Shown here: positions 48,799 to 54,050 of the stretch, in pieces | Position numbering within the stretch: position 1 is the first letter of the stretch | Layout of the letters: every line of letters starts with the position of its first letter | IMG/VR virus record: IMGVR_UViG_3300027822_000014 | Span: 1 to 57,504 of that record | Length of the DNA: 57,504 bases | From: a virus | Strand: one strand, 5' to 3' | Made by a program: the position numbers and the translations under genes | The notes under the pieces: generated by a model | Told to the model about the DNA's origin: nothing | The model's input: only the letters and a program-made list of their open reading frames with translations | Databases searched by the model: none

Positions 48799-49455
48799 TC
48801 AGAAGTGGAAGATCAGTGCAGCCTCGACACCGTGAGACCATGTGCCGTCCACAGTCACACCCTTGTCCCCGGTTTCGTTGATGTGCTGCAACCGATAGCC
48901 GCCCCGAAAAGCGAGCCGATCAGTCAGCGGCACAGTCACGCCGGCCAGCACCTGCTGGGCAAACGCCATGTCATCGCCACTGAAAGCCAGACCACCAATC
49001 ACAGCGTCTGTGTCCACGAATGCTAACCCGACACCTGCGCCGACATACGGGGTCAGCGCGAAGGGGCCTATCGGCACCTGGATCGCATGAACATCGTACA
49101 GGACGTTGAGCATCAGCGTGGTGGCCGTGGTCTCAGAGGTAGACACCGTCGTTGCGGTGTCCGTGGCAGCTCGTGTTGCCTCGATTTCGGCACGGATGGC
49201 GTCAGTGAGTTTCACACCGACAAATGCACCGAACCTGATGCCGGGATCAACGGTCACATCATATGTGGTTCCGGCGAACTCGGCTTCCGTGTCGTGTGTG
49301 AACACACCACCGATCAGTGCCCCGCCATAGAACATAGAAGGCGCGGTGGTCACCTGTGTCTTCGGCGCCACCATGTCAGCAGCAGACGCCACGCTCATGG
49401 TGGCGAGGGCAAGTCCAGCCGCGACGGCGATAGACATCAAAGCTCTCTTAATCAT
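48799..49455 (-). CDS. Outer-membrane beta-barrel protein with signal peptide
   Basis: The signal peptide MIKRALMSIAVAAGLALATM to SASA (cleavage about residue 26) is clear. The mature 190 residues alternate hydrophobic and polar residues in about eight strands (GALIGGVFTHDTEAEF; IRFGAFVGVKLTDAIRAEIE; LTPYVGAGVGLAFVD; LAFRGGYRLQHI) and end in ALIFHF, a terminal phenylalanine as required for barrel insertion. It resembles Omp25/Omp31-type proteins of alphaproteobacteria. Made early in infection, it could mask or replace the receptor (superinfection exclusion). That function is inference. ATG 49455 follows AGAGGAGAT. Confidence 0.8.
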   Translation of the reverse strand: MIKRALMSIAVAAGLALATMSVASAADMVAPKTQVTTAPSMFYGGALIGGVFTHDTEAEFAGTTYDVTVDPGIRFGAFVGVKLTDAIRAEIEATRAATDTATTVSTSETTATTLMLNVLYDVHAIQVPIGPFALTPYVGAGVGLAFVDTDAVIGGLAFSGDDMAFAQQVLAGVTVPLTDRLAFRGGYRLQHINETGDKGVTVDGTWSHGVEAALIFHF

Positions 49456-49534
49456 TGGTAATCTCCTCTCTGTGCGCCTTGGCGCGTTGCGATATTGCTG
49501 TGGTAACATCGCTCAAGCTGAGCGAATTTGCAAA

Positions 49535-50150: not shown

Positions 50151-50564
50151 CTAGTCCTTCTGGATCGCATGCTTCAATGCACGAGTGGCGCCAGCCTTGC
50201 TGAACATCGGGCCGTACAGCCGGTGCGACAGCCGCCGAGCCGTCTCTGCCAGCGCCCGGCGACGTGCCGATCGGCCACCACCTTCCATGGCGGCACGGTC
50301 GTGGTACTCCATGACATGGGCCACCAACTCCTCGTTGCGCCGGAACTGGATGTCAGTAAGGTACTTGTCCCACCACCCGGCAGGATCATCGCCCTGGCGT
50401 TCGATGTGCAGCGCCTCGTGGTTGTGCAGCACCTTCGGCAGCTCGCCGCCGCGTGGCGCATAAATGTACGGTGCGTAGGCGAAAAACACCTCCATGCCCC
50501 GCGCATGCGGGAACACTTCGAGGATCCGCTCGTAATTCGGCGGACGCTCTTTGACGATTTCCAT
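50151..50564 (-). CDS. HExxH-motif protein, possible metallopeptidase, 137 aa
   Basis: VLHNHEALHIERQGDDPAGW (about residues 45-64) contains HEALH, an HExxH zinc-peptidase motif. It is followed by WWDKYLTDIQFRRNEELVAH, where the glutamates could supply the third ligand. Similar short domains appear in phage and prophage proteins. No signal peptide. Whether it is an active peptidase is uncertain. It is the gene after the membrane/SPFH pair. Confidence 0.6.
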   Translation of the reverse strand: MEIVKERPPNYERILEVFPHARGMEVFFAYAPYIYAPRGGELPKVLHNHEALHIERQGDDPAGWWDKYLTDIQFRRNEELVAHVMEYHDRAAMEGGGRSARRRALAETARRLSHRLYGPMFSKAGATRALKHAIQKD

Positions 50565-50566
50565 GA

Positions 50567-50935
50567 CTACTCCTCATGTCCTGTGAGATCGCGCATCTGC
50601 TTGATGCGGTCCTGGTCTTTGGTCACCTTCGGCGACAGGTCTTGCATCGGCGGCAGCTCGGTGGTCTTCGGCGCTGTGAACCGTGGCGTGTCCAGTGTCA
50701 CGCGTGGGCCGTAGGTGGCCGACGTGCCGAACGCCATCCAGATGCACGGCACCAGCCACAGGCCGAGGAACAGGAAGTTGATGAGCCTGCGTTCTTTCTT
50801 GGTGTGCTTCATGTTGCTCGATACAGTGATGCGCCAGAACGCCCAGCGGGCCAGCGCGATGGTGAGGCCGAACAGGCTCGCGAAAATTGCGAGCCTCACG
50901 GCACCGAACCCGAGGTTCAGGAGCTGCCAGTCCAT
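50567..50935 (-). CDS. Two-helix membrane protein, 122 aa (SPFH partner)
   Basis: Two transmembrane helices (about 10-34, FGAVRLAIFASLFGLTIALA, and 50-70, INFLFLGLWLVPCIWMAFG) with a basic loop between them, then a 50-residue polar tail (periplasmic or cytoplasmic) containing TAPKTTELPP. The gene overlaps the SPFH lipoprotein stop by one base, so the two proteins are made together and may form a complex. Confidence 0.7.
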   Translation of the reverse strand: MDWQLLNLGFGAVRLAIFASLFGLTIALARWAFWRITVSSNMKHTKKERRLINFLFLGLWLVPCIWMAFGTSATYGPRVTLDTPRFTAPKTTELPPMQDLSPKVTKDQDRIKQMRDLTGHEE

Positions 50936-51834
50936 TATTGACCTGCCTTTCCGACGAACACGCGCTGGTTCATGCCGACCGAGCCGAGCGCTTCCATAGG
51001 CACGAACACCGTGTTGGGGTTCTTGGCCAGCGCCTCGAGCACCTCGAGCCTGCGGTAATCCAGGTACTTGTCGGTCACTGATTCCGCATAGATGGCGTTC
51101 TCCTCGCGGGCAGCCTCGGCTTTCTCACGCCGCACTGACCGGTTCAGCTTCGCCTTTTCCAGCTCGGTCTGCAGTTGCACCAGAGCGATCTGCTTTTTGG
51201 CTTCCTGCTCCTCGATCTCGATGCGCCGCTGGGCCGCAACTTCCTTCTGCTTGGTGATCACGTCAGGGAACTGGACGTCGGCAATCGAGAACCGCTTGAT
51301 GGTGATCGGCGTGCTGCCGAGTGCCCCCGCGACGGCCTCGGTCAGCTCAGCGTTTACACGCTCGCGGCTGCTGGCCACCTCGTTGATGGAGTACTTCGCC
51401 ATGGCCGAGCGGACGACCTCGCGCATGGCCGGTTTGCCGTAGATCGCATAGATACGCTCTGTCGTGATCAGCGCTTGGTTGTAGTTCTCGTACCGCTTAG
51501 GCACGACCCGGTTGAAGACGCTGTCGATGCTGGCCTCGTCGTCCCGGATGGCCAGGATGAACCGCACATCGAAGCTCATGTTGAGCTGGTCGCGCGGCAT
51601 GAACAGCCGGAACGTTTCCTTGATGCCCTCATCACCGGCCTGCATCAGTATCAGCTTGTCGCAATACGCCCAGCACGGTGCCAGCCTGAACTTGCTGGGT
51701 GTCACCGTCTCCGGTGCATAGCCGTTCTTGGTCAGGATCTTGCCCTTGTGGGCCGGTGGCACCTGCACGCTCTCACCGCAGGCGGCAAGGGCAAGCAGAC
51801 TGCCCATCACAATCATTGTCATAATACGTTTCAT
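50935..51834 (-). CDS. SPFH/Band-7 domain lipoprotein
   Basis: The N-terminus MKRIMTMIVMGSLLALAAC is a lipoprotein signal with lipobox LAAC (cysteine about residue 19). Residues about 30-190 resemble the SPFH/Band-7 fold (SFDVRFILAIRDDE; VVPKRYENYNQALITTERIYAIYGKPAMREVV). A coiled coil (VAAQRRIEIEEQEAKKQIAL onward) follows, as in prohibitin/HflC proteins, which scaffold membrane complexes and regulate FtsH-type proteases. A lipid anchor instead of a membrane helix is unusual. Starts with AGAGGAGAGACTAG. Confidence 0.78.
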   Translation of the reverse strand: MKRIMTMIVMGSLLALAACGESVQVPPAHKGKILTKNGYAPETVTPSKFRLAPCWAYCDKLILMQAGDEGIKETFRLFMPRDQLNMSFDVRFILAIRDDEASIDSVFNRVVPKRYENYNQALITTERIYAIYGKPAMREVVRSAMAKYSINEVASSRERVNAELTEAVAGALGSTPITIKRFSIADVQFPDVITKQKEVAAQRRIEIEEQEAKKQIALVQLQTELEKAKLNRSVRREKAEAAREENAIYAESVTDKYLDYRRLEVLEALAKNPNTVFVPMEALGSVGMNQRVFVGKAGQ

Positions 51835-53408: not shown

Positions 53409-53548
53409 CGGCCATACCCCCAGTACTCCTCGAGACAGTCCTCGCACAGGCCGTAGCCGTTGATCCGCATCAGGCTGTGGCAGACGTCACAAGGCATGTA
53501 TCGCGGGGTATGCAGCAGGCCTCTCAGCCATTCCATGAACCTTCCCAT
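53405..53548 (-). CDS. Small zinc-ribbon protein, 47 aa
   Basis: Basic start (GRFMEWLRGLLHTPRYM), then CDVC and CEDC about 20 residues apart, giving a four-cysteine zinc ribbon, and an aromatic tail (EEYWGYGR). GGAGAGAAAAC precedes ATG 53548. Coupled to both neighbours, so probably a DNA-metabolism accessory. Confidence 0.65.
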   Translation of the reverse strand: MGRFMEWLRGLLHTPRYMPCDVCHSLMRINGYGLCEDCLEEYWGYGR

Positions 53549-53835
53549 GTTTTCTCTCCGTTGTTGTCATCCAGTAGTGCGTTGAACTCCTCAACAGAGG
53601 TGATCGTGGCCACCTCCATCCCGAACACGTTGCGCAGCACGTCTGCCCAGTACTGCTGTATCTTCTCAGGCCTTCCGCCCGGCGGCTTGAACTCTATGAA
53701 CGTGACCCTGCCGGGCCTGAGCAGTATGCGATCCATCACCCCCCGGTTGCCGGGGCTCGACCACTTCGGCATCAGGTAATCACGAGCCTCGGCGAGCTTG
53801 AGGCATTTGCGCTCCAGCTCGCCTTCAGCGGGCAT
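53524..53835 (-). CDS. VRR-NUC domain nuclease, 103 aa
   Basis: Nearly the entire protein is the VRR-NUC (PD-(D/E)XK) fold: ELERKCLKLAEARDYL, GVMDRILLRPGRVTFIEFKP (D, then E-x-K at about 55-68) and QYWADVLRNVFGMEV. These stand-alone domains cut branched DNA such as Holliday junctions. It precedes the helicase, a common pairing. Starts in a TAATG overlap. Confidence 0.85.
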   Translation of the reverse strand: MPAEGELERKCLKLAEARDYLMPKWSSPGNRGVMDRILLRPGRVTFIEFKPPGGRPEKIQQYWADVLRNVFGMEVATITSVEEFNALLDDNNGEKTWEGSWNG

Positions 53836-54050
53836 TACAGGTCCGCTTGCTCGACCGGTATGCAGGTAGTCAAGCTTTTCCACACGCGTACGTTCATGCT
53901 CGTCGAGAACTCGGCGTCCACGCGCTTGACCATGTCGGCGGCACGTTCCATGCACCCGACCAGGGTGGTGGAGTAAAACTTCGGCTCGTCCTGCATGTTG
54001 ATCGAGATTCCGTTCGACAAGCCTATGGTCATCAAGAGTTTAAACAGCAT
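53835..54050 (-). CDS. Hypothetical protein, 71 aa
   Basis: A short hydrophobic start (MLFKLLMTIGLSNGISI) could be a weak signal or membrane segment; the remainder is soluble with a C-G/C-I pair of cysteines. GGGGGATGCA precedes ATG 54050. Overlaps the VRR-NUC start. Confidence 0.6.
   Translation of the reverse strand: MLFKLLMTIGLSNGISINMQDEPKFYSTTLVGCMERAADMVKRVDAEFSTSMNVRVWKSLTTCIPVEQADL

Follow-up and report, generated by a model that had tools for sequence, protein, structure and literature searches.

A phage SPFH lipoprotein and its conserved two-transmembrane partner as a probable functional unit of the cell envelope

Two overlapping genes in the stretch of viral DNA analyzed here ("the window," a virus record of 57,504 bases) encode an SPFH/Band-7 lipoprotein and a small membrane protein with two transmembrane (TM) helices. 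These proteins very probably act jointly in the cell envelope, because nearly all phage relatives and many bacterial relatives of the SPFH gene adjoin such a partner. We assign a probability of roughly 0.55 to the reading that the pair is one functional unit, i.e., a periplasm-facing SPFH scaffold with a dedicated two-TM partner in the inner membrane, and suggest that it may be an SPFH cage of two components that supports the envelope, or the quality control of membrane proteins, during infection, in analogy to SPFH-NfeD and HflK/C-FtsH. The fold, the lipobox, the conserved pairing and the gene overlap are established computationally. While the lipoprotein alone is of an already known kind, the partner is a new element, and the literature that we searched on phage SPFH lipoproteins makes no mention of a dedicated one.

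The lipoprotein ORF (50935-51834, minus strand; 299 aa) is preceded by a strong Shine-Dalgarno sequence (CCAGAGGAGAGACTAGATG) and opens with a signal peptide that ends in the lipobox LAAC (Cys19). The partner ORF (50567-50935, minus strand; 122 aa) follows, and the stop of one and the start of the other overlap in TAATG (50933-50937, minus strand), such that the genes share one base rather than lying one base apart, as the first-pass annotation had it. Both sit in a block of minus-strand genes that includes those for helicase, ThyX, DNA polymerase and primase. The same block encodes an outer-membrane beta-barrel protein with a signal peptide (48799-49509, minus strand; OMP_b-brl, E 8e-12), and an ORF upstream of the helicase (53524-53955, minus strand) matches the endonuclease family phrog_93 (E 1.9e-19). 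What had been called an early block is thus a replication-gene block by content, with the timing read from position; early expression of the pair would be expected from its place in that block.

Both sequence and predicted structure place the first protein in the SPFH/Band-7 superfamily. Specifically, the Pfam family Band_7 (PF01145) matches residues 78-215 (E 1.1e-9) with a score of 39 bits, above the curated cut-off of 23.6, and the AF2 model (mean pLDDT 88.5) has SPFH1/SPFH2 domains (residues ~21-190) followed by a long coiled-coil helix, CC1 (191-252, 62 residues), a second helix (255-271) and a low-confidence C-terminus. Its top matches among solved structures are cage-forming SPFH complexes (prohibitin PHB1 at Z 16.3, flotillin, Erlin, HflK/C, and QmcA). 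Prohibitin is also its best sequence-profile match, the profile being nearer to prohibitin/stomatin than to HflK/C, and no HflK/HflC family model matched in NCBIfam at E<=0.01. The earlier proposal of an SPFH fold anchored by a lipid in place of a membrane helix is therefore borne out, since the predicted fold is SPFH and the lipobox Cys is kept in 59 of 60 aligned SPFH rows. In PHROG, the "lipoprotein" family phrog_200 covers nearly the whole chain (residues 1-295, E 3.2e-34); with this full-length match and the lipobox the protein belongs to that family. Relatives were found by tblastn in 140 phage records, with identities of 27.9-40.3% to those of Alteromonas phage V22, KVP40 and Nankokuvirus. 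Reports of phage SPFH proteins go back to 2006 or earlier; a list of SPFH ORFs from T4-like phages appeared in that year (PMC1524935). In V22, the "stomatin-like" gene was assigned to membrane-protein quality control (PMC7289586), and authors writing in 2026 found it unclear why a phage should carry an SPFH lipoprotein (PMC13239085). We came across no tested function for these proteins in the literature.

The partner has little precedent in the databases. Searches with it in Pfam, in NCBIfam and, by tblastn, in phages gave no match, and those in PHROG marginal ones only; its AF2 model, which gave no match in Foldseek, contains helices only (2-39, 46-75, and 107-118). The TM helices fall in the first two of these; the tail is extended and hydrophilic, carries a conserved D-x-S-type motif and ends in the third helix. 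Its family was nonetheless recovered from genomic position: a profile built from the two-TM genes that neighbor SPFH relatives in phages, viral contigs and bacterial genomes, with the window copy left out, recovers the window partner at E 3.1e-8, and a profile of downstream partners only does so at E 3.1e-6. Alignment queries were needed to find these relatives, as single-sequence scans of viral contigs with either protein gave no match. Copies of the KVP40 type have a PHROG of their own (phrog_15523, function unknown). Two identities considered for this family were rejected. For eight family members, no match to NfeD came up in Pfam at E<=1, and the partner model has no strands and no C-terminal OB-fold. 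An old annotation of the KVP40 partner as FxsA (PF04186) was not reproduced, this family likewise being absent at E<=1.

Pairing was assessed in 60 non-redundant loci (42 viral and 18 bacterial; 4969 ORFs scanned). In 41 of the 42 viral loci the SPFH gene has a partner beside it, homologous or a look-alike with two TMs, a count made with an iterated profile that included some upstream genes; the co-occurrence that the first-pass annotation had anticipated is thus widespread. The partner is downstream in 36, mostly directly adjacent and in a few cases separated by one or more genes (at most 937 bases), and immediately upstream in five (PS119XW, pf16, Miami, Joad, and RVTF4). The one locus outside the 41 is that of PS24, where an upstream two-TM gene qualifies as a partner by position and topology only. 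Elsewhere in these loci, the partner profile gave a single weak match (E 0.041). With the downstream-only profile, of the upstream genes only that of PS119XW reaches significance (E 1.5e-5); the others lie at E 0.036-7.2, and the four of them that are counted among the 41 at E 0.036-2.6. When a profile of six upstream genes was compared with that of the downstream family, the match had 92% probability over 32 tail columns. We accordingly regard the swap of gene order as firm, by sequence, for PS119XW and as moderately supported for the remaining upstream loci. Overlaps of 1 or 4 bases between the two genes recur among relatives in both gene orders, which suggests translational coupling of the pair. 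The two-TM character is itself distinctive: each of the 17 partner genes examined in annotated phage loci encodes two TMs, as opposed to 4 of 79 small CDS from the same loci. Of these four, one is the PS24 partner itself and another had been taken from the wrong strand. Operons that join an SPFH gene to a partner are a known arrangement (PMC13086221).

The first-pass annotation had pointed to an HExxH protein as the next gene, and this ORF is real (50151-50564, minus strand, starting 2 bases past the partner gene), but it is not a conserved companion of the pair: in none of the other 41 viral loci do the first 1.8 kb downstream of the SPFH gene contain an HExxH ORF, and we rejected it as a third member of the module. 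Nor did it match anything in phages, Pfam or PHROG. Three mutually unrelated phages (V22, pf16, and Miami) carry NAD-salvage or PRPP genes near the SPFH gene. A reading of the locus as a defense system was rejected, there being no PADLOC match.

The pair also occurs in bacteria, where a partner adjoins the SPFH gene in 13 of the 18 non-redundant loci and is not detectable in the other five. Around six of these bacterial loci (Microbulbifer elongatus, Neiella, Planctobacterium, Comamonas testosteroni, Thiopseudomonas, and Lampropedia) the ORFs were read, with Pfam run on eight proteins from three of them, and no phage structural genes were obvious by eye. At two loci (L072 and L079) the SPFH gene lies near a contig end without a partner, and the frames beyond look transposase-like by eye. 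Of 48 Microbulbifer genomes, 23 carry a full-length SPFH gene. All 13 Microbulbifer loci (L076-L078 and L080-L089) have a divergent DUF350-type ORF, identified by Pfam in one and by sequence pattern in the other 12, within 600 bases upstream of the SPFH gene; envelope-stress operons are a recurrent setting for DUF350 and Band-7 genes (PMC11237479). The Neiella protein is the closest to the window SPFH protein (56% identity), and in a midpoint-rooted tree the latter branches beside a group that unites a Microbulbifer/Neiella clade with most phages, with support at this fork below the starred level.

Sequence features place the soluble parts of both proteins, by prediction, in the periplasm. This placement follows from the lipobox, the lack of free cysteines, the joint retention or loss of a CxxxC pair, and a positive-inside topology. 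The pair of cysteines at positions 54/58 (CWAYC in the window) is present in 49, absent from 11 and half-present in none of 60 SPFH proteins, although it is missing in few lineages and its co-loss represents few independent events. The mature regions of the same 60 proteins contain no other cysteine, where a set of window proteins has a Cys content of 0.77%. In the partner family, 51 of 51 members have no K/R before TM1 and the inter-TM loop is the most K/R-rich segment in 46 of 51; the predicted topology is N-out/C-out, with a periplasmic tail of 59 residues (median).

On this basis, the SPFH chains would be held by their lipid, face the periplasm and, by homology of fold, oligomerize into a dome-like ring, the form that SPFH proteins take on membranes (PMC12624060). 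The published regression of subunit number on CC1 length (y = 0.1782x + 10.22; PMC12624060) gives 21.3, i.e., a predicted ring of about 21 subunits, for a CC1 of 62 residues. The partner would sit in the inner membrane, reach with its tail into the compartment of the scaffold and contact it there, as a functional counterpart rather than a homologue of NfeD proteins (YbbJ beside QmcA) or of FtsH in its complex with HflK/C. Most likely, the phage pair would organize or protect membrane proteins and keep the envelope working during infection.

The lipid may sit in either membrane. Under the enterobacterial +2 rule, lipoproteins without Asp at +2 go to the outer membrane, although the rule is not universal outside enterobacteria. 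Asp occupies +2 in none of the 59 lipobox rows (G 45, S 7, A 3, F 2, Y 1, H 1), which points to the outer membrane within the limits of that rule. It is tentatively conceivable that a Lol-carried lipoprotein forms a dome hanging into the periplasm, with the inner-membrane partner reaching up to it in a trans-envelope assembly; the long tail, predicted to be periplasmic, would suit such a span. Early assembly with the partner could instead hold the lipoprotein in the inner membrane, where the well-studied Gram-negative SPFH cage, HflK/C, resides (PMC12624060). The broader proposal, that a trans-envelope SPFH machine of this kind is common to phages and bacteria, is more speculative still. We know of no SPFH cage described on a bacterial outer membrane.

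An inner-membrane position is required if the pair instead imitates HflK/C, or takes its place, around host FtsH and so shields phage or host membrane proteins from degradation. The fold is similar to HflK/C (7wi3, 9cz2, and 7vhq), and phages do target FtsH, lambda CIII being an example (PMC1838920); given the missing HflK/C family match and the prohibitin/stomatin-like profile, we consider this role unlikely. Less probable again is superinfection exclusion or a block to DNA entry by an early envelope protein. Phage lipoproteins in such roles exist, e.g., Ltp (PMC3952083), and a role in adsorption or DNA entry has been speculated for a phage SPFH lipoprotein (PMC13239085). However, an exclusion role confined to phages is made less likely by the bacterial pairs, several in ordinary-looking chromosomal neighborhoods, and by the Microbulbifer SPFH genes, and these weaken the superinfection reading. 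Control of lysis, e.g., by a spanin-like pair, appears very improbable: an outer-membrane lipoprotein and an inner-membrane protein with a periplasmic tail would resemble a two-component spanin in layout, but an SPFH fold and two TMs do not fit spanins, bacteria carry the pair too, and phage PS24 has annotated Rz-like spanins in addition. Upstream of the pair at one locus (L011:1217-1854) lie two overlapping small genes of Rz/Rz1-like appearance, with no PHROG match.

A functional unit of SPFH scaffold and two-TM partner would matter in two respects. The conserved, overlapping partner offers a concrete handle on phage SPFH proteins such as that of KVP40, with a bacterial version in Microbulbifer and Comamonas, and the pair raises the question of SPFH cages at the outer membrane.

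Compared with known systems, the SPFH protein belongs with the phage lipoproteins labeled phrog_200, "stomatin-like" or "SPFH domain/band 7," matching phrog_200 over its full length, while the dedicated partner is absent from the description of that family. The QmcA-YbbJ/SPFH-NfeD operons likewise set an SPFH gene beside a gene for a small membrane protein, and the lipoprotein fold matches 8z5g; here, however, the anchor is a lipid instead of a TM helix, and the partner has neither an NfeD match nor OB-fold strands. With HflK/HflC-FtsH the pair shares the SPFH fold and the periplasmic side of the envelope, whereas it has a single, lipid-anchored SPFH protein, no HflK/C match and no FtsH gene. 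Prohibitins (PHB1/2), the best structural and sequence-profile match, have N-terminal TM helices and form hetero-oligomers (PMC12624060), unlike the lipid-anchored phage protein. In place of the i-spanin/o-spanin architecture of two-component spanins, the pair combines two TMs in one protein with an SPFH fold in the other.
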